The notes beneath the pieces were generated by a model. That model saw nothing but the letters and a program-made list of their open reading frames with translations, had not been told where the DNA came from and ran no database searches. This document shows, one piece after another, positions 253 to 27,545 of a stretch of 57,178 nucleotides of DNA (its first letter is position 1; the number at the start of each line of letters is the position of its first letter). Location of the stretch: assembly GCA_018064925.1 (NCBI GenBank), contig JAGHUH010000033.1, forward strand, positions 1-57,178. The letters are read 5' to 3'. The DNA comes from Candidatus Cacconaster stercorequi (lineage in GTDB: Bacteria > Bacillota > Clostridia > Oscillospirales > Oscillospiraceae). Position numbers and translations under genes: made by a program.

Positions 253-1548
253 ATGAGTACCGTGATTACTTCCATTGACCCCCATTCTCCCGCCCTCCGC
301 GCCGGCATACAGGTGGGCGAAAAGCTTCTTACCATCAACGGCCACGAGGTTTTAGATGTTCTGGATTACCGCTTTTACGGGTATGATCCCGTTGCGCAGC
401 TTACGCTGCTGACACCTGCCGGTGAAACACGCGCTCTCACCATCCACAAGATGGAGGGGCAGGATCTGGGACTGAATTTCGACACCTATCTGATGGACGA
501 GATGCGCCAATGTGCCAACCACTGCGTTTTCTGCTTTGTGGATCAGATGCCGCCCAATATGCGCTCCACCCTGTATGTAAAGGATGACGACGCGCGATTG
601 AGCTTCCTGCTGGGGAACTACACCACACTGACCAACATCTCCCCCCGCGAGGCGCAGCGGATCATCGACCTGCACATCAGCCCCATCAATGTGTCCGTCC
701 ACGCCACCGATCCCCAACTGCGATGCACCATGCTGGGCAACAAAAATGCCATGCAATCGTTGGATTATATGCGCGCCTTCGGCGAGCACGGCATCGTGAT
801 GAACGGACAGATCGTGGTCTGTCCCGGCTGGAACGACGGCGATCAGCTGCGCCGCACCATGCACGATCTGCTGAAGATGAATTTTGCCAGCTGCTCCATT
901 GTGCCCGTGGGCATCACCAAATATCGTCAGGGACTGGCCAAGCTCCGGCCCGTGGACGCGCAAAGCGCCGGTGAGATTATCGACATTGTGGACGAGGTGG
1001 GAGAGAAATGCCTGCGTGAAAAGGGCACTCGGGTATTCTTCTGCGCCGATGAGCTGTACCTCAAGGCGGGGCGTCCCCTGCCGGAGGATGACTATTATGA
1101 GGAATACCGCCAATTGGAAAACGGCGTGGGACTTCTCCGCCTTCTGGAGCAGGAGTTCATGGCCGCGCTGCGCTTTGCCGACGCACCCGAGTCCCCTACC
1201 CCCTTCACCATTGCCACCGGTACCTCTGCCGCGCCGTATCTGTCGAAGCTGGTGGAACAGGCCAAGGCGCAGTTTCCCGAAGTTCGCGGTCAGGTGATTG
1301 GAATCGAGAATGATTTCTTCGGCCGTACCATTGATGTGGCGGGCCTTGTCACCGGTCAGGATCTGGCTGCACAACTAAAGGGCCGTGATCTGGGTGAGCG
1401 GGTACTGATCCCCATCAGTATGCTGCGCCACGGCGAAAATGTTTTTCTTGATGACTACACCGTACCTCAGCTTGCGCAGGAACTGGGCTGCCGCGTGGAG
1501 GTCATCAGCGGCGACGGCGGCGATCTGGCCGATGCCATGCTCTCCTAA
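253..1548 (+). CDS. DUF512 family protein (PDZ plus radical-SAM-like)
   Basis: 431 residues. The N-terminal 60 residues form a PDZ-like domain. They are followed by a cysteine motif C87-x3-C91-x2-C94 (CANHCVFC) of the kind that holds a 4Fe-4S cluster in radical SAM enzymes, and then by the DUF512 C-terminal region. This family is widely conserved in Firmicutes directly upstream of der. Its biochemical role is not established to my knowledge. The start is supported by a GAGGA ribosome binding site before ATG. It is the first gene of an operon with der (36-base gap) and plsY. The call on family is firm; substrate and reaction are unknown. Confidence 0.9.
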   Translation: MSTVITSIDPHSPALRAGIQVGEKLLTINGHEVLDVLDYRFYGYDPVAQLTLLTPAGETRALTIHKMEGQDLGLNFDTYLMDEMRQCANHCVFCFVDQMPPNMRSTLYVKDDDARLSFLLGNYTTLTNISPREAQRIIDLHISPINVSVHATDPQLRCTMLGNKNAMQSLDYMRAFGEHGIVMNGQIVVCPGWNDGDQLRRTMHDLLKMNFASCSIVPVGITKYRQGLAKLRPVDAQSAGEIIDIVDEVGEKCLREKGTRVFFCADELYLKAGRPLPEDDYYEEYRQLENGVGLLRLLEQEFMAALRFADAPESPTPFTIATGTSAAPYLSKLVEQAKAQFPEVRGQVIGIENDFFGRTIDVAGLVTGQDLAAQLKGRDLGERVLIPISMLRHGENVFLDDYTVPQLAQELGCRVEVISGDGGDLADAMLS

Positions 1549-1583
1549 CGAAAATACTACCGAAACAGGAGGTTTCTTAAAAT

Positions 1584-2909
1584 ATGTCGAAACCCATTAT
1601 TGCCATTGTAGGACGCCCCAATGTGGGCAAGTCCATGCTGTTTAACAAGATCATCGGCCGGCGCCTGAGCATCGTGGAGGACACCCCCGGTGTCACCCGC
1701 GACCGTATCTACGGCGAAGCCGACTGGAACGGCCGCAAGTTTACGCTGGTGGATACCGGCGGTATTGAGCCCACCACCGATAACCAGATTCTCTCCTTTA
1801 TGCGGGATCAGGCGGAGATCGCCATTGAGAACGCCACTGTCATCGTGCTGGTGGTGGATATCAAGACCGGCATGACCGCCGCCGATCAGGAAGTGGCCGG
1901 GATGCTGCAGCGCTCCAAAAAGCCCATCGTGCTGGCTGTCAACAAGATGGACTCCACCGGTTCCGTTGATCCGGATTTCTATGAGTTCTACAATCTGGGG
2001 CTGGGCGATCCCATTGCCGTTTCCGCCGTACACGGCCACGGCACCGGCGATCTTTTGGATGCCTGCTTCCAGTACTTTCCTCCCGAAACCGAGGATGAGG
2101 ACGATTCTGATGTCATTCAGGTGGCCATCATCGGCAAGCCCAATGTGGGCAAGTCCTCCCTGACCAACCGTATTTTGGGGCAGCAGCGCGTCATCGTCAG
2201 CAATGTGGCCGGCACCACCCGCGATGCCATCGACTCCTACTTTGAAAACGAAATCGGCAAGTATAACTTCATCGACACCGCCGGGATGCGCAAAAAGTCC
2301 AAGGTGGACGACAATATCGAAAAATACAGCGTGCTCCGCGCCACCATGGCCATCGAGCGCAGCGATGTGTGCCTGATCATGATCGACGCACAGGACGGCG
2401 TGACCGAACAGGACACCAAGGTGGCCGGTCTTGCCCACGATGCCGGTAAGGCCTGCATCATCGTGGTCAACAAGTGGGATCTGGTGGAAAAGGACGGCAA
2501 GACCATGGATCGAATGCGTGAGGATATCCGCCGGGATCTCAGCTATATGACCTACGCCCCCATTCTGTTTATTTCCGCCATGACCGGTCAGCGAGTCAAT
2601 CGCCTGTTTCAGCTGATCAACTATGTCAACGAACAGTCCACTATGCGCATCACCACCGGTATGCTCAACAGCGTCCTGGCCGATGCACAGACCCGTGTGC
2701 AGCCGCCCACGGATAAGGGCCGTCGCCTGAAGATCTACTATATGACGCAGGTGGGCGTCAAGCCGCCGCACTTTGTCGCCTTCTGCAATGATAAGAAGCT
2801 GTTCCACTTTTCCTACCGCCGTTATCTGGAAAACCAGATCCGCAGTGTGTTTGGACTGGAAGGTACTCCCATCATTATGACCATTCGCCAAAAGGGCGAG
2901 GAGGAATAA
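1584..2909 (+). CDS. der: ribosome biogenesis GTPase Der (EngA)
   Basis: 441 residues, the normal length for the family. Two tandem GTPase domains are visible. The first P-loop is GRPNVGKS (10-17) with DTGG (57-60) and NKMD (120-123). The second P-loop is GKPNVGKS (184-191). A KH-like C-terminal domain follows. Der assists late assembly of the 50S ribosomal subunit in the cytoplasm. A strong AGGAGG site precedes the ATG. It lies between the DUF512 gene and plsY, an arrangement common in Firmicutes. All key nucleotide-binding motifs are present. Confidence 0.98.
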   Translation: MSKPIIAIVGRPNVGKSMLFNKIIGRRLSIVEDTPGVTRDRIYGEADWNGRKFTLVDTGGIEPTTDNQILSFMRDQAEIAIENATVIVLVVDIKTGMTAADQEVAGMLQRSKKPIVLAVNKMDSTGSVDPDFYEFYNLGLGDPIAVSAVHGHGTGDLLDACFQYFPPETEDEDDSDVIQVAIIGKPNVGKSSLTNRILGQQRVIVSNVAGTTRDAIDSYFENEIGKYNFIDTAGMRKKSKVDDNIEKYSVLRATMAIERSDVCLIMIDAQDGVTEQDTKVAGLAHDAGKACIIVVNKWDLVEKDGKTMDRMREDIRRDLSYMTYAPILFISAMTGQRVNRLFQLINYVNEQSTMRITTGMLNSVLADAQTRVQPPTDKGRRLKIYYMTQVGVKPPHFVAFCNDKKLFHFSYRRYLENQIRSVFGLEGTPIIMTIRQKGEEE

Positions 2910-2916
2910 GCAAACC

Positions 2917-3555
2917 ATGTTCAAAACCATTTCAGTTATACTGATCGTGCTGGTGTCCTACTTCATGGGCTGTTTCAACGGTTCGGTCATAACCTCCTGC
3001 TTCCTTATCCATGATGATGTCCGCAATCACGGCAGCGGCAACGCCGGTCTGACCAACTTCTACCGCACCTACGGCGCCAAATACGCCCTGCTGGTCATTG
3101 GCTGTGATATGCTCAAGACCGTCATTGCCTGCCTCATCAGCGGCTATATGTTCCGGTATATCTTTAGCGATTGGACATTGGGCGTTCTGGTGGGCGGCCT
3201 GAGCTGCGAGTTGGGTCATATCTTCCCCGTATTCTTCGGCTTCAAGGGCGGTAAGGGCATCCTCTCCGGCGGCATTATTGTGATGATGCTGGGCTTGCGT
3301 GTGGCACTGATCGCCTGGGCCCTGTTCCTGGTTTTGGCGTGCAGCACCCGTTATATTTCGCTGGGCTCCATCGCCGCTGCTGTCAGCCTGCCACTCTCCG
3401 TCTTTTTCATATACCATGGCAATTTGCTTTATACCGCGCTGTGTGTGGTGATCTCTGTTCTGGTGATCTGGTGTCACCGCGGCAATATCCAGCGCCTGCT
3501 CCGCGGTGATGAAAAGAAATTCCATTGGCATATCACCTCTACTACCGGACAATAA
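2917..3555 (+). CDS. plsY: acyl-phosphate:glycerol-3-phosphate acyltransferase PlsY
   Basis: 212 residues, a polytopic membrane protein with about five to six hydrophobic segments. It carries the PlsY loop signatures GSGNAGLTNFYRTYG and the glycine-rich GFKGGKG. PlsY transfers an acyl group from acyl-phosphate to glycerol-3-phosphate, the first step of membrane phospholipid synthesis, and works with PlsX. It begins 7 bases after der ends, so it is co-transcribed. The C-terminus is slightly longer than average but otherwise unremarkable. Confidence 0.95.
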   Translation: MFKTISVILIVLVSYFMGCFNGSVITSCFLIHDDVRNHGSGNAGLTNFYRTYGAKYALLVIGCDMLKTVIACLISGYMFRYIFSDWTLGVLVGGLSCELGHIFPVFFGFKGGKGILSGGIIVMMLGLRVALIAWALFLVLACSTRYISLGSIAAAVSLPLSVFFIYHGNLLYTALCVVISVLVIWCHRGNIQRLLRGDEKKFHWHITSTTGQ

Positions 3556-3557
3556 AA

Positions 3558-4469
3558 ATGAACTCTAAAATCAGACAAATCCTTTTTCCGCTGCTGGCGG
3601 CATTGATCTGGGGTACTGCATTCGTAGCACAGAGCATCAGTACCGACTATATCGAACCCATGACCTTCAATGCCATCCGCTCCGTAGTGGCCTTTGTAGT
3701 GTTGCTGCTCATTCTGCGCCTGTTCCGTCGGGTACAAGCGGCGAAAAGTCCAAGCACCCCTCTTCCCTCTCTCGGCACGCGGCGCGATCTGATCCTTGCC
3801 TCCCTCTGCTGCGGCGCAGCGCTGGCGCTGGCCTCAAATCTGCAGCAGGCGGGCATTGCCTACACCTCGGTGGGCAAGGCGGGTTTCATTACCGCGTTGT
3901 ATATTGTGTTGGTCCCCGTTTTCGGTCTTTTCTTCAAAAAGAAGGTGGCGCTCCCCATCTGGATCAGCGTGCTGCTGGCGGTGGGTGGCTTATACTGCCT
4001 GTGCATCTCCGAGCATTTCACCATTACCCGGGGCGATTTTCTGGTGCTTCTTTGCTCGGTTTTGTTCGCTGTGCATATCCTCCTGATCGATCATTTCACC
4101 CAGAAGGTCAACGGCATCGCCTTGAGCTGCGGACAGTTTCTGGTAGCTGCTATCCTGTCCGGCATCGGAATGCTGATCTTTGAGCATCCCTCTCTCTCCG
4201 CCATTCTCACCTGCGTCGGTCCGATTCTCTATGTGGGTATCTTTTCCAGCGGCGTGGCCTACACGCTGCAGATTCTGGCGCAGAAGGACGGCAACCCAAC
4301 CGTGGTCTGTCTGCTGCTGAGCATGGAATCCGTGTTCTCCACCCTCTCCGGCGCCATCATCCTCCACGAAGTGCTGTCCGGTCGGGAATACTTCGGCTGT
4401 GTTCTGATGCTGACAGCCGTTATTCTGTCACAGATTCCCTTCCCCACCCGAAGGAAAACCACAGTTTAA
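3558..4469 (+). CDS. DMT/EamA family transporter
   Basis: About 303 residues with ten predicted hydrophobic helices in two five-helix repeats, typical of the drug/metabolite transporter superfamily. A start 33 bases upstream (3525) is possible but would overlap plsY; the ATG at 3558, right after the plsY stop, gives a normal N-terminus (MNSKIRQILFPLLAALIWG). The substrate cannot be read from the sequence; relatives export amino acids or metabolites. It is the last gene of the operon and is followed by a strong bidirectional terminator. Confidence 0.88.
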   Translation: MNSKIRQILFPLLAALIWGTAFVAQSISTDYIEPMTFNAIRSVVAFVVLLLILRLFRRVQAAKSPSTPLPSLGTRRDLILASLCCGAALALASNLQQAGIAYTSVGKAGFITALYIVLVPVFGLFFKKKVALPIWISVLLAVGGLYCLCISEHFTITRGDFLVLLCSVLFAVHILLIDHFTQKVNGIALSCGQFLVAAILSGIGMLIFEHPSLSAILTCVGPILYVGIFSSGVAYTLQILAQKDGNPTVVCLLLSMESVFSTLSGAIILHEVLSGREYFGCVLMLTAVILSQIPFPTRRKTTV

Positions 4470-4485
4470 ATGCATCCCGCATAAT

Positions 4486-4519
4486 AAAGCACGATCGACA
4501 ACACTGTCGATCGTGCTTT
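4486..4519. terminator. bidirectional intrinsic terminator between convergent operons
   Basis: A 15-base perfect stem (AAAGCACGATCGACA and its complement) with a 4-base loop. It has a T-rich tail on the plus strand and an A-rich flank serving the minus strand. It ends both the der operon and the selenium-type operon. Confidence 0.9.
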
Positions 4520-4537
4520 TCTTTCCATAAAAATGCA

Positions 4538-4768
4538 TCAGCATATCAGCTCGTAGAAACTATCCACATCCAAGTCGGCCGTGATGGTCTCCAACGCACG
4601 GCGCTGCTCAAGCTCTGCACGCCACGCCATGCCGCAGTCGGCGGTAATGCTGCGGGGCACCGGAATCAGCCGTCCGGGCACGCCCTGCGCCTTGCAGCGC
4701 TTCTCCATGGCCATAGCGCCTGCCGTGGTATGAAAGGTCACCAACAGCCGCAGCTTCCGTTCTATCAC
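4538..4768 (-). CDS. DUF3343 protein, putative Se/S carrier-like
   Basis: 76 residues. Matches the small DUF3343 family, described as Se/S carrier-like. Two cysteines, C25 and C45 (the latter in ITADCGMAW), could carry persulfide or selenide. It overlaps the upstream cysteine desulfurase gene by 4 bases (ATGA-type), so translation is probably coupled. Role by context: accept sulfur or selenium released by the desulfurase. This is inferred from the operon and family, not from a catalytic motif. Confidence 0.8.
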   Translation of the reverse strand: MIERKLRLLVTFHTTAGAMAMEKRCKAQGVPGRLIPVPRSITADCGMAWRAELEQRRALETITADLDVDSFYELIC

Positions 4769-5886
4769 TTTGCCACCTCCCGAATGGCCGCAATGGCGGT
4801 GTCTACCTCCGATTCTGTGTTGAAATGGCTGAAGCTGAAGCGTACCGCACCCTGCTCCACTGTGCCCAGCGCACGATGAAGACGCGGCGCACAGTGGGCA
4901 CCGGGCCGAGTGGCAATGCCATACTCCTGCGCCAGCACATCGCTGACCTCCGAGGAATCATAATCCAGGACATTCAGCGACACGATGGGGGCGCGGTCTG
5001 TCGTGGAAAAATCACCGTAAACCGTCACGCCGTCGATTCCCGCCACGCCTTCATAAAAGCGGCGAGCCAGCATCTGCTCCTGCTGACGGATAGAGTCAAT
5101 CCCCACCTCCGCAATATAATCCAGCGCAGCGGACAGCCCGGCAATGCCGTGGCCGTTCAGTGTACCGGCCTCCAGGCGGGTGGGATACTGCTCCGGCTGA
5201 TGCTCCAGATAGGTCTGTACGCCGGTACCGCCCACCTTCCAAGGACGAAGTTCCACGCCTTCCGCCACGCACAGTCCGCCGGTGCCCTGTGGCCCAAGCA
5301 GGCTCTTGTGCCCGGTAAAGCACAGCACATCAATGTGCATCCGTTCCATGTCGACGGGGAATACCCCCGCCGTCTGGCTGGCATCCACAATGAACAGCAG
5401 GCCGTTTGCATGGGCAATCTGCCCGATGCGGGCAATATCCAGCACATTGCCTGTCAGGTTCGATGCGTGGGTACATACAATGGCACGAGTATTTGATTTA
5501 ATAAGCTCTGTAAAGCTATTATAGTTTACAGTTCCATCTTTTCCTGCCGGCACAAAATCGACATTTCCATGGCGATACAGCGGGCGCAGAACGGAGTTAT
5601 GCTCGCAGTCGGTGGAGATCACATGGTCTCCCTCGGACAGCGCACCGGCGATGGCAATGTTCAGCGCCTCGGTGGAGTTAGCGGTAAAAATCACATGATC
5701 GGGGCGGGCGCACCGGAACAGACGCGCCAGCTTTTCCCGGGTATCAAAAATCACACGGGATGCCGTCAGCGCTTCCTCATGTGCGCTGCGGCCGCTGTTG
5801 CCCATGGACTGCATAGCCTGCACCACCGCCTGAATGACGCACTCCGGTTTGTGCAGGGTCGTGGCCGCGTTATCCAGATAAATCAC
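4765..5886 (-). CDS. cysteine desulfurase family aminotransferase (class V)
   Basis: 373 residues, a PLP-dependent class V fold. K194 in the FTGHKSLLGPQG motif is the Schiff-base lysine. H97 (DCEHNS) stacks on PLP, and C332 in RPGAHCAP is the likely persulfide cysteine. It resembles the desulfurase subfamily linked to selenium-dependent hydroxylase loci (TIGR01977 type) more than IscS/SufS. It sits between yedF and the DUF3343 gene with 4-base overlaps on both sides. Likely role: mobilise sulfur or selenium from cysteine or selenocysteine. Confidence 0.9.
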   Translation of the reverse strand: MIYLDNAATTLHKPECVIQAVVQAMQSMGNSGRSAHEEALTASRVIFDTREKLARLFRCARPDHVIFTANSTEALNIAIAGALSEGDHVISTDCEHNSVLRPLYRHGNVDFVPAGKDGTVNYNSFTELIKSNTRAIVCTHASNLTGNVLDIARIGQIAHANGLLFIVDASQTAGVFPVDMERMHIDVLCFTGHKSLLGPQGTGGLCVAEGVELRPWKVGGTGVQTYLEHQPEQYPTRLEAGTLNGHGIAGLSAALDYIAEVGIDSIRQQEQMLARRFYEGVAGIDGVTVYGDFSTTDRAPIVSLNVLDYDSSEVSDVLAQEYGIATRPGAHCAPRLHRALGTVEQGAVRFSFSHFNTESEVDTAIAAIREVAK

Positions 5887-6491
5887 GGTTTGATCACCTT
5901 GCCTGCCTGCGCCAGCTTCTCCACAATGGTATACATATTGGTCACGCTGCCTACAGCCAGCTTTTCCGTCAGGCCGTAATAGTTCAGGCAGGTACCGCAG
6001 GTGAGAATTTCCACACCCTGCGCCGCCATATTCTTCAAATCCTCCAGCGAGTCGGAACCCTCTACCGTCAGACGGGCACCGCCGTTATAAAACAGCACTG
6101 TTTTGGGCAGTACCTCCAACTGAGACAGAGCAAACAGAAAGCCCTTCATCAGCGTTTTTCCCAGCTCCTCGCTGCCGCGGCCCATGATATCGGTATCCAC
6201 CGCCACCACAAAATTGCCGTCTGCGGGAGCACAGGACACGCACTCGATTTCTTCCGTGCCTGCCTCCACCGGGCCGCTGACAGAGATGGTAACCACAAAG
6301 TCCTTTTCTCCTGCCTGCTTTGCCTCGACACGCAGTCCCTTCTGGTCAGCCATGCGCTTCAAATTTTCCACAGCCACCGCATTGTCGACCCGCACCTCCA
6401 GCACACCTTCGGTCATGCCAGCCAGTGCTTGCGTTGCCTTTACCACCGGCATGGGGCATGCCATGCCGCGTGCATCCAAAGCTTTATTCAT
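5883..6491 (-). CDS. yedF: sulfurtransferase-like selenium metabolism protein YedF
   Basis: 202 residues from ATG at 6491. That start is chosen because GGGGAGG lies 8 bases upstream; the frame stays open further but without homology. An N-terminal TusA-like domain carries the CPMP motif (C12). A DsrE-like second domain ends with LTCGTCLNYYG. The two-domain form is the one called selenium metabolism protein YedF. It is the first gene of a tightly overlapping operon with a cysteine desulfurase and a DUF3343 carrier. No selD, selA or selB is visible in the window. Confidence 0.88.
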   Translation of the reverse strand: MNKALDARGMACPMPVVKATQALAGMTEGVLEVRVDNAVAVENLKRMADQKGLRVEAKQAGEKDFVVTISVSGPVEAGTEEIECVSCAPADGNFVVAVDTDIMGRGSEELGKTLMKGFLFALSQLEVLPKTVLFYNGGARLTVEGSDSLEDLKNMAAQGVEILTCGTCLNYYGLTEKLAVGSVTNMYTIVEKLAQAGKVIKP

Positions 6492-6525
6492 CGAGATAAC
6501 CTCCCCGTTATTCTTGTTGGAGAAT

Positions 6526-6553
6526 ATTGTACCATATCTTTTTGAAAATACAA
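6526..6553 (-). promoter_or_regulatory. promoter for the yedF operon
   Basis: Read on the minus strand: TTGTAT (6553-6548), a 16-base spacer and TACAAT (6531-6526). It lies about 35 bases upstream of yedF and just after the ysxC terminator. Confidence 0.55.
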
Positions 6554-6564
6554 CGCTTTTGCGC

Positions 6565-6596
6565 AAAAAAACAGAGCCCAAATGGGCTCTGTTTTC
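6565..6596 (-). terminator. intrinsic terminator after ysxC
   Basis: Stem ACAGAGCCCA / TGGGCTCTGT with a very short AA loop, followed on the minus strand by a run of seven T. It separates ysxC from the yedF operon. Confidence 0.9.
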
Positions 6597-6604
6597 CGTT
6601 TCAT

Positions 6605-7192
6605 TCAACAATTTTTGGAAATGGCTGCCAGAAGCTCCGTTTTGCCAATCCCCTTCTCCGCAGAAAATGGGATCAGGATATCGTCCTCGCCCAGCTCCAA
6701 CACATCCCAGATGGTCTGCAGGTTCGGCTCGATTTCCTTTTTCTTCAGCTTATCCAGCTTATTGGCCACCACGATCAAGGGGCATCCGGTGCCCTTGAAC
6801 CAGTTGCACATGGTCACATCGTCCGCCGTGGGCTTATGTCGCGCATCCACAATCAGCACACCCAGCGTGATGAGTCCCTCCTCGGCAAAGTAGTTCTCCA
6901 TCAGCCGACCCCAGCGGTCACGCTCCTCCTTGGATACCTTGGCATAGCCGTAACCGGGCAAATCGGTAAAGTAGATCTTGTCGTCGATCCGAAAATAATT
7001 AATCTGAGTGGTCTTGCCGGGGGTGGCACCTACCCGGGCAAAGTTCTTGCGATTGAGCAGACGGTTAATCACCGAGGACTTGCCCACATTGGATCGGCCG
7101 GCAAAGGTAACCTGCGGCCGACCGTCACGGATAAAGGTACTTTGCTTTACAGCTGATAGCACAAATTCCGCCTTATTAAAGTTAATGGTCAT
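6605..7192 (-). CDS. ysxC: ribosome biogenesis GTP-binding protein YsxC/YihA
   Basis: 195 residues, family-typical length. The P-loop GRSNVGKS is at 32-39. The G3 motif is DLPGYGYAKV and the G4 motif NKLDK. It assists 50S subunit maturation. In Firmicutes it usually follows lon; here too it starts 19 bases after lon ends, consistent with co-transcription. A strong terminator follows. Confidence 0.97.
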   Translation of the reverse strand: MTINFNKAEFVLSAVKQSTFIRDGRPQVTFAGRSNVGKSSVINRLLNRKNFARVGATPGKTTQINYFRIDDKIYFTDLPGYGYAKVSKEERDRWGRLMENYFAEEGLITLGVLIVDARHKPTADDVTMCNWFKGTGCPLIVVANKLDKLKKKEIEPNLQTIWDVLELGEDDILIPFSAEKGIGKTELLAAISKNC

Positions 7193-21397: not shown

Positions 21398-21473
21398 CGG
21401 GGAGTAGCGCAGTCGGTAGCGCGCTTGGTTCGGGACCAAGAGGCCGGGAGTTCAAGTCTCCTCTCTCCGACCA
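21398..21473 (+). tRNA. tRNA-Pro(CGG)
   Basis: 76 bases with encoded CCA. The acceptor CGGGGAG pairs with CTCTCCG (one G-U). The D arm is GCGC/GCGC, the anticodon stem CTTGG/CCAAG with loop TTCGGGA (anticodon CGG), and the T arm loop TTCAAGT. It is the integration site of the downstream element: the last 45 bases are repeated at 27501-27545. Confidence 0.95.
21429..21473 (+). repeat. attL: left 45-base copy of tRNA-Pro 3' end
   Basis: Begins TTCGGGACCAAGAGGCC and ends at CCGACCA. It matches 27501-27545 except for one base (G here, T there) at tRNA position 49. Confidence 0.95.
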
Positions 21474-21482
21474 TCAAAAAAT

Positions 21483-21516
21483 CCTGTAATCGCAATGGTT
21501 ACAGGGTTTTTTCTTT
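21483..21516 (+). terminator. element-supplied terminator for tRNA-Pro
   Basis: CCTGTAA and TTACAGG form a 7-base stem with a 9-base loop followed by GTTTTTTCTTTTT. It lies just inside the element, so it replaces the host terminator pushed to 27551. Confidence 0.85.
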
Positions 21517-21541
21517 TTGCTCTGATATGGTCAAAAACAGA

Positions 21542-21567
21542 AAGTGTCAACAAAAAGTGTCAACAAA
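21542..21567 (+). repeat. left arm-type integrase sites (2 x AAGTGTCAACAAA)
   Basis: Two tandem 13-base copies. The same AGTGTCAACAA motif occurs three times at the other end of the element (27362-27394) in the same orientation. This is the pattern expected of arm-type sites for a tyrosine recombinase. Confidence 0.7.
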
Positions 21568-21599
21568 TTTTCATTTTTTCAAAAAAATTTCCGTCAGAA

Positions 21600-21849
21600 C
21601 ACAGGAAAAGACCGCCCAGCTATTGCCGGACGCCGCAATTTGACGGATGAGCAGAAAACCTATTTGCTGGGAAAGCTGTTTGAGGCAAGGAAGAACACGC
21701 GAGGAGCGCAGATTGGGAACGAAAACGCATCAAAACAAAGGTACCAAAATGGTACTTTGAAAAAACAAAAAGGCAAAACCGCCGACATAATCGCAAAAAA
21801 ACAATGTACCCAAACTGGGAACATTGAAACCAATATACGAAAGTGGTAA
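21600..21849 (+). pseudogene. remnant of a phage/plasmid ParB-like DNA-binding protein
   Basis: The frame contains NLTDEQKTYLLGKLFEARK followed by a segment ending GKTADIIAKKQ. This resembles ParB-like proteins of phages and plasmids. It lacks any proper 5' end, running into the arm sites, and after GKTADIIAKKQ it drifts to a stop, so only an internal fragment survives. It is the only plus-strand coding trace in the element. Family recognition is from memory of the motif. Confidence 0.45.
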
Positions 21850-22006
21850 ATACCCAAAGTGGTGATTTACCAAAAAGATACACACAGGAAAAGACCGCCC
21901 GACATCAGCCGGACGGCCTCATCCCGAAAGGAAGTGAGCATATCACTCACGCCCGAATGTGGGCGCGGTGTCGCAATGTAAGTGCGCCGTGTGGCGCGTT
22001 TATCGG
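21850..22006. other. non-coding stretch with a short repeat at the left end of the element
   Basis: I see no gene. A 19-base sequence beginning ACACAGGAAAAGACC at 21887 repeats the one at 21599. Small hairpins (GTGAGCATATCAC, and GCGCC/GGCGC near 21985) may end the leftward operon. Confidence 0.4.
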
Positions 22007-22201
22007 TCAGTTGGTGTCTGTGTCGCAGTTATCATTCTGGCCGTCTGTGGTGCGTTCTATGGCCTTACAGCGGCGTTCCCAGACCGGTTTCCACGCATCA
22101 ACAGGGAACAGCTGCCCGGTTTCAAAGAAGCACCGCCACCGGGCAAGGTAGTATTGTTTCATCAGCTTTCGCCGCTGGTAGGCTTCTCTGCTGTATGCCA
22201 T
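22007..22201 (-). CDS. small hypothetical protein of the element
   Basis: 64 residues, basic and aromatic-rich in the N-terminal half (AYQRRKLMKQYYLARWRCFF). No family is recognised. It overlaps the upstream gene by the ATGA arrangement, which supports it being translated. It is the last gene of the leftward run. Confidence 0.5.
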   Translation of the reverse strand: MAYSREAYQRRKLMKQYYLARWRCFFETGQLFPVDAWKPVWERRCKAIERTTDGQNDNCDTDTN

Positions 22202-22380
22202 CAGTCACCCTCCAGTCCATCAAAGTCAACGGAAATGCCCTTGCGTGGCTCATCTGCTCTGCGTGGGCGCTTGTAAACGGTAGGCTCATCTGGCCATGTT
22301 GAAAAGTCAATCACGGTAACAATTTCGCCGTCATCGCGGAGGACTTCCAGACGGTCAAGGCGCTGTTTAATGCTGGTCAT
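22201..22380 (-). CDS. small hypothetical protein of the element
   Basis: About 59 residues starting MTSIKQRLDRLEVLRDDGE. The chosen start at 22380 overlaps the preceding reading frame's stop, so translation would be coupled. It has an acidic C-terminus (DFDGLEGD). No known domain is seen. Confidence 0.55.
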   Translation of the reverse strand: MTSIKQRLDRLEVLRDDGEIVTVIDFSTWPDEPTVYKRPRRADEPRKGISVDFDGLEGD

Positions 22381-23042
22381 CAAAACGCCTCCGCAGCCGG
22401 AGCGCCCAACTGTTCCCACTTGCCGTTCATCGCCAGCGTATAGCCGCGATCACCACGGCCGTGGCTCTGGCCGCTGCAAATATCGGCGGTGTTGACAAGT
22501 TCGCCCCACGCCGTCATAATGCCGCTGTCAGCGTTTCTCGCCTGTGCTGCAAGGACAATCAGCGCAGACTGTTCTGCCCGGTCTGTGGCCGTCTGTGCTG
22601 CGTCAGAGGCCGCTTTTGCGATCAAGCGTGTCATAGTCGCGTTACCATCAAAACGGCTCAGTAGTGCCTCAAAATCCTTTGCAGATCAAATGCCGCTCCG
22701 CAAAATTTCAGTGGTTGCGCCGTCCACGCTATCAGGATTTACGGTATTATCAGCAGCGACAGCCGCGCGGAGTTCAGCTGTAAGACGGGATTTTTCGCGG
22801 TCATATTCACGCCATACCGTATCGGCTACGCGGTCAAAATTTGCTTTCGCTTCGAGGTATGCGGCTTGTGCTTTCGCCCTTTCGATTTCGCGCTGGCCGA
22901 CAAGCTTTTCCTCGTGCCATGCGTTAGCCTTGTCCCTTGCTTTTTCTGCCTTTTCAAGGGCAGCGGCGGCCTCGGCATATGTAGCACGGTCTTTCAAAAA
23001 TTCCCGTTCAAGTGATTTTGCGTATTCACGGTATTTACTCAT
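22380..23042 (-). pseudogene. coiled-coil protein interrupted by an in-frame TGA
   Basis: An upstream part (23042-22689, about 118 residues, alanine/glutamate/lysine-rich coiled coil) and a downstream part (to 22380) lie in the same frame, separated only by one TGA at 22686-22688. The downstream peptide continues sensibly across the stop (SAKDFEALLSRFDGNATMTRLIAKAA) before its first ATG at 22634. This looks like one gene of about 220 residues with a nonsense mutation. Alternatively the two halves are now separate, or the stop is read through. Function unknown. Confidence 0.6.
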
Positions 23043-23313
23043 TGTCAATAGTTCCTTTCAGTTCAAAATTTTTGTTGTCAAGCTCTGCGGCGATCTGCTG
23101 CAAAGTCAGTTCGCTTTCGTCCAGCTCACCCAACCGGAGAAGATAGCCACGCAAAACGCTGTTGCGTTCATCAAGTGCGCTGCCGTGGTAGGCTGCGCGA
23201 TCCATCGGTGTGAGCATCTGCCAAAGTTCGGAAAATTCCGCAAAAGACGGTGGCCTTTTGATAGAAAATCGGTATTCAAGTTCTGCTAAGCGTTTGCGGA
23301 TATTATCGGTCAT
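23035..23313 (-). CDS. hypothetical protein of the element
   Basis: 92 residues, largely helical and acidic (AELEYRFSIKRPPSFAEFSELW near the start). It overlaps the genes on both sides by a few bases, as expected for a compact phage-like operon. No family is recognised. Confidence 0.6.
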   Translation of the reverse strand: MTDNIRKRLAELEYRFSIKRPPSFAEFSELWQMLTPMDRAAYHGSALDERNSVLRGYLLRLGELDESELTLQQIAAELDNKNFELKGTIDNE

Positions 23314-23416
23314 GCCTGCGCCTCCAGCGGATAATTTCGACAGTTCCCCAAATAACTGCCATCAGAGTAGCACCGTTCATGGCGGCAATCAGGTATAAAA
23401 TTTCCATCTTCGTCAT
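23303..23416 (-). CDS. single-helix membrane peptide
   Basis: 37 residues from the ATG at 23416, chosen for the GGAGGG site upstream. A hydrophobic segment ILYLIAAMNGATLMAVIWG is followed by a basic tail (RWRRRHDR), so it should insert with the C-terminus inside. It could be holin-like or a small regulator; there is no direct evidence. Confidence 0.55.
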   Translation of the reverse strand: MTKMEILYLIAAMNGATLMAVIWGTVEIIRWRRRHDR

Positions 23417-23435
23417 GAGTTTTTTCCCTCCAAAA

Positions 23436-23816
23436 TCAAGAAATATTTTCATTCTGCGCCTGTTCCAGCGCGTCCAGACGGCGCATGATATTTGCACTTT
23501 CAAGGTAGCGGTTACAGTGCCGGAGAAGTGCATCACTGGCCGAAATTCTCACGGATGCAGCCGCGTTTGTGTCACGAATGACTTCCAGCAGCGCCGCCAC
23601 AGCCTCGGACAAGCCATCACACATCTGTGCCGCCGTCGAGGACAGCAAAACACCCTGCATATCGTCAAAGCGCTGCCGAAAATCCGGGTCGGCCAGTCGC
23701 TTGTAAATCGCGGCTCTGGTTAGTCCGATACAGTCAGCGGTTTTCCCAACGCTGCCAAAAGTGAGTAGCGCTGACAGCAATTTTTCATCCGAAATCTTTT
23801 TAGGCACGGTTGTCAC
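23436..23816 (-). CDS. HTH protein resembling small terminase subunits
   Basis: 126 residues. An N-terminal helix-turn-helix (VGKTADCIGLTRAAIYKRL) is followed by a helical region with VRISASDALLRH near residue 95. That layout is common in small-terminase-like HTH proteins of phages and related elements. In satellites such a protein can redirect packaging. No large terminase is present. The family assignment is by motif resemblance only. Confidence 0.55.
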   Translation of the reverse strand: MTTVPKKISDEKLLSALLTFGSVGKTADCIGLTRAAIYKRLADPDFRQRFDDMQGVLLSSTAAQMCDGLSEAVAALLEVIRDTNAAASVRISASDALLRHCNRYLESANIMRRLDALEQAQNENIS

Positions 23817-23976
23817 CCCCTAATTTGTTATAATTATGTAAACCGTTATTTTCCACTTTGACGGCCTCGGCTTTTCGCTGCCAGTAGCGATCTCGGTAGA
23901 CCTTGAGTTTGTCTTTATTGGTTTCTCTCCAGCGGCGCATATACTCGCGCTGTGCGCTGCGTGCTTCTTCTGTCAT
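23800..23976 (-). CDS. small basic hypothetical protein
   Basis: 58 residues from ATG at 23976, with a charged helix (REYMRRWRETNKDKLKVYRD). Similar short proteins often precede small-terminase-like genes in phage-type elements. It overlaps that gene by 17 bases. Function unknown. Confidence 0.55.
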   Translation of the reverse strand: MTEEARSAQREYMRRWRETNKDKLKVYRDRYWQRKAEAVKVENNGLHNYNKLGGDNRA

Positions 23977-24010
23977 GGTAAACCCCTCCAATCATAGCAT
24001 TTTTTGTGTG

Positions 24011-24166
24011 GTGCATAAAAGTTGATAGTCTTTGTTAGGCGTAAAAAACATCAACTTTATCAACCTTATCTACCCTTATAAAAAAGTAGATAAAACGATA
24101 TTTTTCTAAAAAGTTGATGAAGTTGATAAAACTCACTCCTAACAGAAAACATCAACTTTCATGCAC
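24011..24166. repeat. two-armed iteron/inverted-repeat region, candidate replication origin
   Basis: A segmented palindrome flanks an AT-rich centre (24074-24085). GTGCATAAAAGTTGAT (24011-24026) mirrors ATCAACTTTCATGCAC (24151-24166). CATCAACTTTATCAAC (24049-24064) mirrors GTTGATGAAGTTGAT (24113-24127). TTATCTAC (24066-24073) mirrors GTAGATAA (24086-24093). The GTTGAT core occurs about six times. It lies directly downstream of the RepA-like ATPase, where satellite-type elements have their origin. Confidence 0.65.
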
Positions 24167-24173
24167 CTTTCAG

Positions 24174-25385
24174 TTAATCCGGCAAATCTTCTGCCAGTTC
24201 CTCGACGGTTTCAGCCCTGTAAATGCTAAATCCGTTTACTGCGCGGCCATTGTATTTCACGCGCTTTCCCGTCTGAATTGTGATACCGTTTTGCAGCAGT
24301 TCACTTTTGACGGTATCAAGCGCTTTTTTTGGCTGAACGCTGCCGAATGCGTCCACACCGTACTCATCGCGGATTGCATCATAGGCAATATTCACAACCT
24401 TGCCGGGAATGGTTTTCGCTGTGATAGCCTCGACAAGCAGCCAGTTTCGCTCTTCTACTTCGTCCTGTGTTTGCAGCACCTCATACGGTGTCTTTCGCCA
24501 TCTGGCGGCATTCTCAAGCGTCTGACGGGTGATCTCTGAAAATCCCGCCCATTCGCATCCACCGTCAGTGGTAATGCGAAACTTGATAGAACGACCAGCA
24601 GCGGCATAATTGCTTTTTGTGTGTACCACAATTCTTGTGCCCTTTTCTGTCGGGTCATCATTAAAAATAACCCTCATGGCAGACCGTGCCGCGTTGATAA
24701 AGTCTGTGGATCCTGTGGCGGCATGGTTTGCGTTTTCGGCCTGTGACCTTTTGTTTACATGGCTGACAAGTATCATTCCGCAATTGCAATCCTTTGCCAG
24801 ATTTGCAAGTCGCTGAAATACTGGACGCACAGCATTGACGCGGTTTATATCCACATCAGCACCAAGGAAAGCGTGCCAAGGGTCAATTATTACAAGTCGC
24901 GGATTATATCTCTGTATTGTCTGCTTGAAAATATCATAGCCGTCTGTGAAGTTCATGCCCTCGCTGTCCATGCAGTCAAGCAAGAACACCCGGTCAAGGT
25001 CAGCACCAGAGGCATCAAGCCGCTTCTTGAGTAGTTCGCCGCGATCTTCTGCGCTGATAATCAACACATTTTGCGGTTCAAAGTCTTGCGCCCTATCATC
25101 ACCCGGTAAACGCTGCCCTCGGCTCACAGCCGCAGCAATACCACAGCAGAAAATAGTTTTTCCTGTGCCACCATCAGCCATTAGTACGGTATAATCTCCA
25201 ACAGGTATATGCGGACGCCATACAAAGTCGGTATCATCCTCGCCAAACTGTGCCGCCGTCTTTGCCGTGAAGCTTTTATCTGTGTTATTAAATTCGGTGT
25301 CTCCGGTTTTGTAGATACTCAACAGCGCCGCCGCGATTTCGTTATCCGTCAAGCCGTCATTTTTCATGCGCTCATATTCCGTCAA
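24174..25385 (-). CDS. AAA family ATPase, RepA-like replicative helicase
   Basis: 403 residues. Walker A is GGTGKT (72-77) and Walker B resembles RLVIIDPWHAF, a RecA-type core as in hexameric RepA helicases of small plasmids and integrated elements. A C-terminal winged-helix-like part (DTVKSELLQNGITIQTG) may bind DNA. It follows the excisionase-like gene by 14 bases and precedes the iteron region, suggesting it drives replication of the excised element. Confidence 0.82.
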   Translation of the reverse strand: MTEYERMKNDGLTDNEIAAALLSIYKTGDTEFNNTDKSFTAKTAAQFGEDDTDFVWRPHIPVGDYTVLMADGGTGKTIFCCGIAAAVSRGQRLPGDDRAQDFEPQNVLIISAEDRGELLKKRLDASGADLDRVFLLDCMDSEGMNFTDGYDIFKQTIQRYNPRLVIIDPWHAFLGADVDINRVNAVRPVFQRLANLAKDCNCGMILVSHVNKRSQAENANHAATGSTDFINAARSAMRVIFNDDPTEKGTRIVVHTKSNYAAAGRSIKFRITTDGGCEWAGFSEITRQTLENAARWRKTPYEVLQTQDEVEERNWLLVEAITAKTIPGKVVNIAYDAIRDEYGVDAFGSVQPKKALDTVKSELLQNGITIQTGKRVKYNGRAVNGFSIYRAETVEELAEDLPD

Positions 25386-25399
25386 TCAGCGTCACCGCC

Positions 25400-25585
25400 T
25401 TACTGCTCGTTCAGCCATGCAATGAACTTGTCGTAGTTGAACATCTGCCGATTTCCGACAGGTATCGCCCTTATCGTTCCGTTTTTAATCAGCGTGCGGA
25501 GCGCATGTTCGGGCAGCGGCCCCAGTTTGGCTCCTTGCCGTATTGTCACAATTCGCGGTGCTGTGATAGTTTTGATCTCATCCAT
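25400..25585 (-). CDS. excisionase-like HTH protein
   Basis: 61 residues from ATG at 25585, with AAAGGA upstream at a somewhat long spacing. A single winged helix-turn-helix (LPEHALRTLIKNGTIRAIPVGNRQ) of the helix-turn-helix 17/Xis type is visible. It probably binds near the attachment or regulatory sites and controls excision or the ATPase gene downstream. It could equally be a small transcription regulator. Confidence 0.7.
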   Translation of the reverse strand: MDEIKTITAPRIVTIRQGAKLGPLPEHALRTLIKNGTIRAIPVGNRQMFNYDKFIAWLNEQ

Positions 25586-25622
25586 TAGCTGGTCAATCCT
25601 TTCTATAAGTAATTTTTTGAAT

Positions 25623-25937
25623 AAAAAAAGAGTGACACACATTTGTGTGTCACTCTCGAAGTGACGGACAGGACACACAAACGCACATAACGCGGCCTAT
25701 AAAACCAAACCACGCCCTATGCTATTGTGTCGCCCTGTCCAATAACCGCCTATTGGAAAGTTTTCTTTCCTCATCGGGTTTCCTTTTACATCGGCTCACC
25801 AGTTTTTTCGCGAGAGCGTTTCCTCGCGCCCATGTACTGCAAAAATGGGTTTCGACCTGCGCCTTGCCAGCAGGTCGCCTTTGTTTACTGCTGTGTGGTC
25901 AGCCTCGGCAACGATGCACTACATCTTTTTTCTTACT
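25623..25937 (-). ncRNA. candidate structured non-coding RNA of the element
   Basis: A promoter on one side and an intrinsic terminator on the other bracket about 315 bases with no long open frame. The RNA would hold several stems: CGACCTGC/GCAGGTCG, CGCGAG/CTCGCG, CCCAT/ATGGG, GGAAAG/CTTTCC and CCAATA/TATTGG. A 25-codon frame (25774-25697, MRKENFPIGGYWTG) with AAAGGA upstream lies inside, so a leader peptide or tiny protein is an alternative. No known RNA family is recognised. Confidence 0.55.
25630..25655 (-). terminator. intrinsic terminator of the candidate RNA
   Basis: An 11-base stem GAGTGACACAC / GTGTGTCACTC with an ATTT loop, followed on the minus strand by seven T. It stops transcription just before the excisionase-like gene. 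Confidence 0.9.
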
Positions 25938-25943
25938 GTTTTT

Positions 25944-25971
25944 ATTATACATCGTTATTTCAAAAATGCAA
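25944..25971 (-). promoter_or_regulatory. promoter of the candidate RNA
   Basis: On the minus strand TTGCAT (25971-25966), a 16-base spacer and TATAAT (25949-25944). Confidence 0.7.
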
Positions 25972-26005
25972 GTACAAAATTTCATCATATAGTTGCAAAA
26001 ACATC

Positions 26006-26023
26006 TCGTTTTGTACAAAATGA
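26006..26023. promoter_or_regulatory. operator-like palindrome
   Basis: A perfect 12-base palindrome TTTTGTACAAAA with matching outer bases, about 35 bases upstream of the RNA promoter. A regulator site is plausible; no dedicated repressor gene is visible in the element. Confidence 0.4.
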
Positions 26024-26042
26024 CATATTTATTAAGGAATAA

Positions 26043-26082
26043 TGTTGCGTTATGTTGTACTCTGTTGTACTCTGTTGCGCAA
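26043..26082 (+). repeat. four phased 10-base repeats (TGTTG core)
   Basis: TGTTGCGTTA, TGTTGTACTC, TGTTGTACTC and TGTTGCGCAA follow without gaps, one helical turn each. An inverted pair TTGCGCAATT / AATTGCGA overlaps the end. It lies between int and the RNA unit, so it probably binds Xis or another regulator. Confidence 0.6.
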
Positions 26083-26132
26083 TTTCAAACCAATTGCGAC
26101 ATCGTAGAAAAATTTTTGTGCATATTGCCAAT

Positions 26133-27344
26133 TTACACGATCAAACTTTCTATCCCGTCAACAGTCCGGCGCTTTGCCTCCTCTGTCACTCCGGCATAAA
26201 ATGCCATCGTTGTTGACGGGTCAGCGTGGCCCAGAAGCTCTTGTACCTCTTTCAGGTTTGCACCCGCCTCAAGTGCCAGCGTTGCCGCCGTGTGCCTCAG
26301 ATCGTGCGGTGATACATTCGGCAAGCTGTTCCGCTTCACAAATTTACGCTGCCAGCGTGTCGGCTCCGTTGGATATAGCGGACGATATGGGTCCGCCGGC
26401 GCACAGAACACAAATGCAGATGGAAGCAAAACACCATATGCGCCGTCATGCTGGTGCTTTAGGGCCATGAGCATGGCATGAAGCCGCTGGGAAATCGGTA
26501 CGGTTCTTTCCTCGCCTGTTTTGGTGGTGCCGATATGCAGCTTGCTTTCCGCCTCACGGTCCATCGTCACATTACGCACTACTGACAAGGAAAGGTTTTC
26601 CCCGTCAATATCACCCCATTGCAGGCCGACAGCTTCCCCCCTGCGGAGGCCGGTGGTAATCAATACATTCATCAGGCATTGCCAATATAGCGGTTCATTG
26701 CTCAGGCATTGCATGAAGCGTTGAGCATCCGCCGGTGAAAGGAAGTCAACACGCTTCTTGTCGCGGTGTGGCTTCTCTTTTGCGCTCAAATCCTGACACG
26801 GGTCAGTCTGGATATAATGAAACCGGCGGGCGTACTCCATGATATTCCGCAATGTTCCAAAATGATGCTGGACCGTTGCCGCGCTGTATGGCTTGCCGGT
26901 TTTCGTTGTTGCCTCTGTACGCAAATATTTGACATACCTTTTTACGGCCTCGCCGTCAATCTTTGCAAGCTGCTTCTTCTTTCCGAAATATCCGATAATG
27001 TCATCACTCATGTATCGGAAAAACTGGACGCTGGTTGGCTTGTGTTCTCCATCAAGTACATGATCCGGCCACCAATGATTTTCTATGAAATTGGCAAGCG
27101 TTATTTTCTGCCGGTCCTCTTTTGACTTGCTGCGGCCATAGTCTGCCTTTTGCGCCCGTTCCCATTCATCGGCAAGGCGCTCGACCTCTTTACGCTCCTT
27201 TGCCGGTGTCAGACCATCAGGGCGGTTTATTGTCTTTGTCCGGAATACCTGCTTGTATGTGTTCTCATCACGACCCACACAACAGCGGAGGCGATAACTT
27301 ATCACCTCACCGGATGAATTATAATTAGCCTTGATCGTTGCCAT
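26133..27344 (-). CDS. tyrosine recombinase (integrase)
   Basis: 403 residues from the ATG at 27344, chosen for GGAGGT 7 bases upstream. An N-terminal arm-binding domain and a SAM-like core-binding domain (about 75-170) precede the catalytic domain. Catalytic signatures are TGLRRGEAVGL (Arg), HDLRHTAATL (HxxR), LLGHAD (His) and the nucleophile tyrosine in TTMAFYAGV. It integrates the element into tRNA-Pro. The arm-type repeats abut its 5' end. Confidence 0.97.
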   Translation of the reverse strand: MATIKANYNSSGEVISYRLRCCVGRDENTYKQVFRTKTINRPDGLTPAKERKEVERLADEWERAQKADYGRSKSKEDRQKITLANFIENHWWPDHVLDGEHKPTSVQFFRYMSDDIIGYFGKKKQLAKIDGEAVKRYVKYLRTEATTKTGKPYSAATVQHHFGTLRNIMEYARRFHYIQTDPCQDLSAKEKPHRDKKRVDFLSPADAQRFMQCLSNEPLYWQCLMNVLITTGLRRGEAVGLQWGDIDGENLSLSVVRNVTMDREAESKLHIGTTKTGEERTVPISQRLHAMLMALKHQHDGAYGVLLPSAFVFCAPADPYRPLYPTEPTRWQRKFVKRNSLPNVSPHDLRHTAATLALEAGANLKEVQELLGHADPSTTMAFYAGVTEEAKRRTVDGIESLIV

Positions 27345-27361
27345 GCCCAGCACCTCCAAAA

Positions 27362-27394
27362 AGTGTCAACAAAGTGTCAACAAAGTGTCAACAA
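27362..27394 (+). repeat. right arm-type integrase sites (3 x AGTGTCAACAA)
   Basis: Three head-to-tail 11-base copies just upstream of int, in the same orientation as the two copies at the left end. They may also affect int expression, since the reverse strand reads TTGTTGACACT and so contains TTGACA. Confidence 0.75.
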
Positions 27395-27500
27395 ACTTAC
27401 AAAACGGTGTTTCTTCTTATAACACAATAATACACGCAAACCATTGAAAAATCAAGACTTTTTGCATTTTATTAAACGATATAAAAAGTTACTTCTTTAA

Positions 27501-27545
27501 TTCGGGACCAAGAGGCCTGGAGTTCAAGTCTCCTCTCTCCGACCA
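27501..27545 (+). repeat. attR: tRNA-Pro 3' fragment
   Basis: A 45-base copy of the tRNA 3' end, cut off from its 5' half. One base differs from attL (T at the position equivalent to tRNA base 49), which would weaken the T stem, consistent with loss of selection on this copy. Confidence 0.95.

Follow-up and report, generated by a model that had tools for sequence, protein, structure and literature searches.

The window analysed here (the whole stretch, 57,178 nt) is contig JAGHUH010000033.1, positions 1–57,178 of the + strand, from the Candidatus Cacconaster stercorequi (Oscillospiraceae) genome GCA_018064925.1. It contains a compact integrated element with an integrase, a replication module and a small terminase (TerS) homologue, which probably is, or very recently was, a minimal phage satellite. 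The element measured 6,072 bp, counted from start to start of a 45-bp direct repeat (21429–21473 and 27501–27545) with 44/45 identical positions and one mismatch. It lies within the 3′ end of a tRNA-Pro(cgg) gene, placed by both ARAGORN and Rfam at 21398–21473 (+). This agrees with an earlier note on this DNA, which had proposed a ~6.1-kb element in tRNA-Pro. The second-best ungapped match to the repeat on the + strand of the window was 25/45. The G + C content was 48.5% in the element vs 55.3% in the rest of the window. The following features were recognized (att, attachment site):

21398–21473 (+): tRNA-Pro(cgg), the integration target, with attL as its last 45 bp (21429–21473)
21474–22006: left end, no assignable gene
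21541–21565 (+): AAAGTGTCAACA twice, putative arm-type sites on the tRNA side
22007–22201 (−): small protein, 64 aa, no assigned function
22201–22380 (−): small protein, 59 aa, N-terminal RLxxLE motif
22380–23042 (−): p215, conserved helical gene of ~215 aa, interrupted by an in-frame TGA
23035–23313 (−): small protein, 92 aa, RLxxLE type
23436–23816 (−): TerS homologue, 126 aa
23800–23976 (−): p63, small basic protein, 58 aa from its ATG (phrog_14214, function unassigned)
24010–24167: putative replication origin, with TGTTAGG and CCTAACA boxes and six GTTGAT iterons
24174–25385 (−): RepA-like AAA_25 / DnaB-like ATPase, 403 aa
25400–25585 (−): Xis/AlpA-like helix-turn-helix (HTH) protein, 61 aa
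26133–27344 (−): tyrosine integrase, 403 aa
27360–27393 (+): AAAGTGTCAACA three times, putative arm-type sites in the int–attR interval
27501–27545 (+): attR, repeat of the last 45 bp of tRNA-Pro (44/45)

All element genes are on one strand. The 12-mer AAAGTGTCAACA had five copies on the + strand of the window, two just inside attL and three between int and attR, which is the usual place for integrase arm-type sites. Short repeats shared between the two ends, with different sequences, were also found in the related loci L080, L117, L078, L079 and L119 (L numbers denote loci), chance sharing being partly expected at 9-mers. The left end carried a duplicated 34-bp motif (21599–21632 and 21882–21915, 82% identical), and its open reading frame (ORF) at 21544–21849 gave no PHROG match at E ≤ 0.01.

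Domain scans (Pfam, PHROG, NCBIfam) covered ten proteins of the element. The integrase matched Phage_integrase (E 5e-27) and RepA matched AAA_25 (E 3e-30), confirming both as first called. The Xis-like gene is indeed present between int and repA, a place it also has in relatives, but its family matches were weak (Pfam HTH_17, E 0.0086, below the Pfam cut-off; phrog_66, E 0.007). None of the matches of the ten proteins at E ≤ 0.1 was to a family of capsid, portal, tail, relaxase or secretion proteins, which bears out the reported lack of structural and conjugation functions. The reported lack of an obvious master repressor holds for the ORFs of the window element and for those read in its sibling L080, but an HTH-type protein is encoded next to int in most of the other relatives read (by eye in L065, L066, L078, L079, L081, L083 and L084).

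Packaging gene, p215 and putative origin

The 126-aa protein had been described as a small-terminase-like HTH protein, and its homologues upgrade this to a TerS assignment. On its own it matched phrog_2538 (E 8e-4). A profile–profile comparison with TerS proteins taken from beside large terminase (TerL) genes gave 99.8% (E 1.3e-27). In 35 of 44 viral loci with a satellite-type TerL, the TerS stop was −31 to +15 bp from the start of TerL (32/41 abutting among loci fetched by TerL alone, 3/3 among those fetched by TerS), and the two genes overlap in L082, L087 and L107. The window TerS also matched a protein encoded one small gene upstream of the large terminase in the complete tailed phage PQ006093 (30.7 kb; E 6e-14), and one Streptococcus satellite, Javan176 (E 9e-4). 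For the TerS of L078, 19 of the 21 matching records were Streptococcus satellite phages; for that of L084, 38 of 42 record names began with Streptococcus, and all 22 of those listed were satellites. The fold ranking pointed weakly in the same direction: the first 11 PDB rows from Foldseek (chains of four entries) were small terminases or phBC6A51 (E 0.12–0.32), and a small terminase was the weak top row of a TerS profile search against PDB sequences (E 0.014).

The earlier note had listed tiny genes. Several small proteins are indeed encoded, but two of them, first read as ORFs of 120 and 84 aa, form one gene of ~215 aa (p215) in relatives. In the window copy an in-frame TGA splits p215 into stretches of 118 and 101 residues; in relatives it is uninterrupted. 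The first half weakly matched head-scaffolding families (phrog_15003, E 0.0011; phrog_1793, E 0.051). This is a hint at most, because four full-length relatives gave no scaffolding match (three had no PHROG match and one matched a holin at E 0.043). The p215 of L117 was predicted as all-helical (pLDDT, the predicted local distance difference test, 93), and a p215 profile retrieved only coiled-coil proteins from PDB sequences, at E 0.08 and above. In three Javan satellite records p215 was not recognized, by eye or by a p215 search.

Together with p215, the small proteins make up a conserved 3′ block. Among the other small genes, p63 was also present in many relatives, and the 92-aa protein had a relative at 52% in L117. 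The RLxxLE proteins (window 22201–22380 and 23035–23313; L078, L079, L080 and L117) have an N-terminal coiled-coil-like motif resembling the C-terminal end of TerS. By eye, they might hetero-oligomerise with TerS.

The array at 24010–24167 consists of six iterons (GTTGAT/ATCAAC) in two arms of three, which flank an AT-rich center. Its repeat count was higher than in any of 300 mononucleotide shuffles, so the two-armed repeat noted earlier next to RepA is real. It is putatively the replication origin. In relatives, a recurring frame comes right after repA: box TGTTAGGRTATRKTTTT, inner iterons, a spacer, inverted inner iterons, box TACGCCTAACAAAAA and outer iterons. We scored the boxes in 19 loci with a repA at least 50% identical, window included, using a consensus derived from these loci themselves. 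With at most three mismatches, box 1 was found in 12/19 loci and box 2 in 10/19. Both boxes followed repA in the window, L115–L119, L122, L127 and L128, and both were present in L131. Box 1 had four mismatches in L120, L121 and L129, box 2 was no better than shuffles in L114 and L123, and neither box was found in L124, L125 and L130.

In eight of the 11 origin regions, at most 5 of 300 mononucleotide shuffles reached the observed iteron count; in the other three (L114, L122, L127) the count was not above shuffles. The iterons differed by element: GTTGAT in the window, AATCTATA/TTGATT in L116–L119, GTACAT in L120 and L123, TAAAC in L128 and GCAACC/GTCAAC in L127. Such differences would be expected if the architecture is shared but every RepA recognizes only the origin of its own element, which the comparison of sequences suggests. 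With its recurring frame and element-specific iterons, the module resembles a swappable code for replication specificity. More distant repA genes (~30%) had other sequences behind them, several with repeat arrays (by eye). In L118 (5103–9173), the repA relative and the same origin frame lie beside a serine-recombinase-like gene (by eye), not a tyrosine integrase.

Relatives and circular forms

RepA relatives were found in 36 of 200 genomes of the family and TerS relatives in 17 of 300, source genome included in both, and RepA relatives occupied 25 loci in a GTDB-based collection. A second att copy was detected in 14/19 tRNA-bearing loci tested, window included, and in 4/9 loci of a further set, where L116 and L123 repeat L080 and L065; for L120 and L138 the test gave only a within-cluster or 15-base match. 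Ten TerS-bearing relatives with both ends mapped were islands of 5,250–9,905 bp in tRNA genes: L119 (5,250 bp, the second att copy ending the contig), L080 (5,685 bp), L078 (5,810 bp), L079 (6,163 bp), L081 (6,838 bp), L117 (6,922 bp), L082 (7,333 bp), L084 (9,108 bp), L087 (9,543 bp) and L088 (9,905 bp). With these ten islands, the relatives are not all parts of larger prophages or integrative and conjugative elements, the outcome that the earlier note had named as speaking against it, although one virome contig has the TerS-p215 block beside tail genes. The sibling L080, in tRNA-Pro(ggg), has the gene order int-xis-repA-TerS-p215 of the window, with 65% (int), 63% (repA) and 36% (TerS) identity. 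Integrated elements without TerS also exist, e.g., L089 (8.2 kb) and L065 (12 kb). L123, which repeats L065, comes from Oscillibacter sp. PC13, apparently an isolate.

Among viral contigs, L107 (MT836267; 11,458 bp) had a 124-bp terminal overlap, giving a circular contig of 11.3 kb. It has a single att core, the 3′ part of a tRNA-Thr, which shares 37/45 positions with that of L078; the integrases of L107 and L078 are 51% identical. Its genes comprise int, an HTH-type regulator, an Xis relative, a primase/helicase-type gene, a nuclease-like gene, TerS, TerL and p215. The record was deposited as faecal phage DNA from human faeces, Mexico. It appears to belong to the virus-like particle (VLP) study PMC8361208, which by its available text used DNase and chloroform treatment; we infer this link, as the accession is absent from the main text of that paper.

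IMG/VR scans with the window RepA, a RepA alignment and a window-type TerS alignment gave no relative; int, TerL and L084-type TerS alignments did. There were 41 TerL relatives in IMG/VR, 40 of them in contigs up to 16 kb. Across 50 viral loci, 41 of them whole, seven contigs had terminal overlaps of 37–127 bp. From L107 and these seven circles, 102 of 115 ORFs were scanned; among the best 25 of 126 families, integrase was matched by eight proteins, TerL by seven and ParA by six, the last with single-protein confirmation for L183. L181 lacked TerL. A scan of 66 less obvious proteins from the eight circular relatives gave 22 Pfam families, none of them capsid, portal or tail, and none of these was among the best 25 of 58 families in the PHROG scan. 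Several of the circles look like satellites of a plasmid-like type that encode a terminase themselves. The IMG/VR contigs L144, L145, L149, L152, L153 and L183 are circular, 11–14 kb long, and carry TerL and TerS. Four faecal phage records with a distant repA (L002–L005, 34–36%) were considered as circles and dropped, having no terminal overlap.

Tentatively, and with slightly less than even confidence, we group these elements in a large, little-described satellite superfamily of gut and rumen Clostridia. Its members would share a packaging block of TerS and p215 and an interchangeable iteron origin, and would range from repressor-less tRNA islands of 5–6 kb borrowing the TerL of a helper, through 7–11 kb TerS-TerL forms, to plasmid-like ParA circles of 11–14 kb. 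If this is true, satellites with a complete terminase of their own need only the empty heads of a helper, without reprogramming its TerL.

The satellite reading and its alternatives

We consider the element to be, or very recently to have been, a minimal satellite resembling the phage-inducible chromosomal islands (PICIs), with a probability of roughly three in four (0.74), judged from sequence. The satellite reading is supported at the level of the family; the window copy looks damaged, and its mobilisation by a phage is putative. In the proposed cycle, a phage would trigger expression of the element, and the Xis-like protein and integrase would excise a circle of ~6.07 kb. RepA would open the iteron array and drive replication into concatemers. 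The satellite TerS would bring the helper TerL to satellite DNA, which would be packaged into helper particles, with several element copies in a full-size head or a single copy in a small one. After entering a cell, the circle would integrate again at tRNA-Pro. The p215 and RLxxLE proteins probably face the helper, in packaging or head assembly; this is the least certain step.

Several observations weigh against this reading. The window element has no TerL, and a single query of its bin with one satellite TerL gave no match, a weak negative. Satellite-type TerL has 42–48% relatives in phage-sized records, and its relatives occurred in 8 of 200 family genomes, the surroundings being examined in one (G020, element L087). 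TerS was beside repA in only 6 of the 25 genome repA loci, some of the remainder ending early; several loci without TerS have a sigma-like gene or a nuclease-like gene of ~110 aa, possibly VRR-NUC. The Foldseek E-values of TerS were weak, with unrelated folds close behind in VIA-align. The window copy probably carries a broken p215, and viral and PDB structure searches with the p215 fold were uninformative, excluding no family. The small IMG/VR contigs may be fragments. The 7-kb contig L229 (MT837364.1) encodes a helicase, a sigma-like protein, TerS, two small genes and p215, followed by phrog_11299 and phrog_706 (phage proteins with no assigned function) and then a tape measure protein; the sigma-TerS-p215 block directly upstream of the tail genes was noted at 1248–6736. 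The TerS-p215 block is therefore not confined to stand-alone satellites; upstream of tail genes it could represent a helper-embedded satellite, gene capture or a phage sharing the block. Finally, according to PMC12946183, packaged chromosomal DNA is common in VLPs from gut Oscillospiraceae and Ruminococcaceae, so that presence in a virome is weak evidence by itself and a circular form is stronger.

The alternative that survives best is that the family is mobile and the window copy is a decaying resident, packaged no longer or only with help. We regard this as possible, if somewhat doubtful. The TGA in the conserved p215, the left ~530 bp without a gene but with a duplicated motif, and the mismatch between the att repeats point to decay. 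On the other side, the ORFs of int, xis, repA and TerS have their full length, the element still has its iteron array, and a single in-frame stop in a draft metagenome-assembled genome (MAG) could be a sequencing or assembly error.

It is unlikely that the element is instead non-conjugative and integrative (an integrative and mobilizable element, IME, without a recognized relaxase), moved by a conjugative helper, with the HTH protein as a regulator and not TerS. Int, Xis, Rep and an iteron origin are equally typical of IMEs, and many relatives with the same repA lack TerS. However, no relaxase family was among the Pfam or NCBIfam matches, TerS homologues lie beside TerL in dozens of contigs, and the element DNA had no blastn match in a plasmid collection, which excludes close DNA relatives only.

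That the element is what remains of a larger prophage after loss of the structural genes is very improbable: the TerS family does occur in the 30.7-kb tailed phage and beside tail genes in L229, but this idea is contradicted by the compact islands of 5.3–9.9 kb that recur, with various integrases and tRNAs, in ten relatives carrying TerS, and by closed contigs without recognized structural genes. Equally improbable is a small phage with unrecognized capsid genes, to which p215 with its weak scaffolding matches and several small proteins without known function could be assigned, since the ~3.6 kb outside int and repA encode proteins of at most ~215 aa, the L117 p215 was predicted as all-helical, and the 22 Pfam families of the circular relatives included none that was structural.

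The earlier note had found the layout to recall phage-inducible satellites, and the sequence supports this satellite likeness. As in PICIs, an integrase lies between direct att repeats, a predicted TerS packaging module and a replication gene with its own putative origin (AAA_25 ATPase and iteron module) are present, and capsid, portal and tail genes are lacking. The PICI regulatory module comprises an Stl-like repressor or AlpA and divergent transcription; here we saw a weak Xis/AlpA-like HTH protein, no repressor among the ORFs read, and a single-strand gene arrangement. Staphylococcus aureus pathogenicity islands (SaPIs) have a Rep with an adjacent iteron origin. The element resembles the Gram-positive PICIs (SaPIs and Streptococcus satellites such as Javan245 and Javan176) in having int at one end, an Xis/regulator gene, Rep with an iteron origin, a TerS-family gene further along with small genes behind it, and no structural genes; TerS homologues occur in Javan records. 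It differs in that no repressor or divergent switch was found in the window copy or L080, with all genes on one strand, in its host among the Oscillospiraceae-type Clostridia, in p215, unrecognized in the three Javan records, and in relatives carrying their own TerL.

At 6,072 bp the element is below the 7–20 kb that defines PICIs in S. thermophilus in the accessible part of PMC13376191, a working range of one study and not a mechanism. The available text of PMC10803314 gives a PICI average of 9.5 kb and 6,110 bp for PICMI115 of Vibrio, and the satellite Javan245 has 6,450 bp. The earlier remark that the element would be among the smallest known is thus fair, but with these two and L119 (5,250 bp) the size is neither special nor a record. 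The element is similar to PICMIs also in its minimal int-alpA-prim logic and lack of structural genes. In contrast, PICMIs, as described in that text, lie next to fis in Vibrionaceae, with no terS homologue identified; with its tRNA-Pro site and TerS, the window element is not a PICMI. Helper-embedded PICIs, in the portion of PMC10111431 available, are a possible match for L229; the window element lies in a tRNA, not in a late gene.

In the literature available to us, satellites are described in Gram-positive cocci, Enterobacterales and Vibrio. Our search, with subscription papers and preprints mostly outside it, found no paper pairing “phage satellite” with “Oscillospiraceae”, nor a title on this family; the text available of PMC7667829 mentions “phage-inducible chromosomal island” and “Clostridiales” once each. 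Satellites shape phage–host conflict and gene transfer. The interest is in the family rather than in the window copy: in Oscillospiraceae-type gut Clostridia, elements of 5–6 kb, near the lower size limit, and members that appear as circular contigs in viral collections offer a compact system for what a satellite minimally needs. From the element-specific iterons in a recurring frame follows a rule, open to testing, that pairs each Rep with the origin it fires. A comparison of members with TerS alone and with TerS-TerL would test directly how satellites redirect packaging.

Integration site and candidate helper

We traced the site neighborhood (a radical-SAM gene, M50 and M23 peptidase genes, tRNA-Pro) through the genus, with the radical-SAM gene as anchor; flanking DNA and the GH3 neighbor failed as anchors. 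The radical-SAM gene was present in 29/32 genomes of the genus, source genome included. On the upstream side of this gene, an att core was recognizable (at least 34/45) in 14 of the 28 other genomes, once in each, and in none of the other 14. Nine of those with a core had >7.6 kb beyond it, and five had too little sequence. All nine judgeable sites gave no match to the int, repA, TerS, TerL and p215 queries (E ≤ 1e-8), a test to which unrelated insertions are invisible. One of these unoccupied sites, L201, had a core of 45/45. Several same-genus contigs stop just past tRNA-Pro.

In two other genera (L091 and L096), tRNA-Pro is flanked by similar-reading radical-SAM and M23 ORFs and holds a different element (by eye), with integrases ~40% identical to that of the window. 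The tRNA-Pro(cgg) beside radical-SAM/M50/M23 looks like an integration hotspot. Different elements of 6–8 kb with related integrases occupy the same site in the three genera.

With respect to a helper, the 25-kb contig C24 of the same bin (L190, L191) is a candidate by its presence only. It encodes TerS, TerL, a portal, a peptidase, a major head protein, an internal virion protein and an endolysin. The C24 TerS matched PHROG families other than those of the window TerS. The HK97-type capsid PF05065 was not found in the source genome, the major head protein on C24 being a different one. With the MAG at 88% completeness, the bin may lack further phages. The head, packaging and lysis gene set of C24 is podophage-like, and comes with a replication initiator match (phrog_3584).

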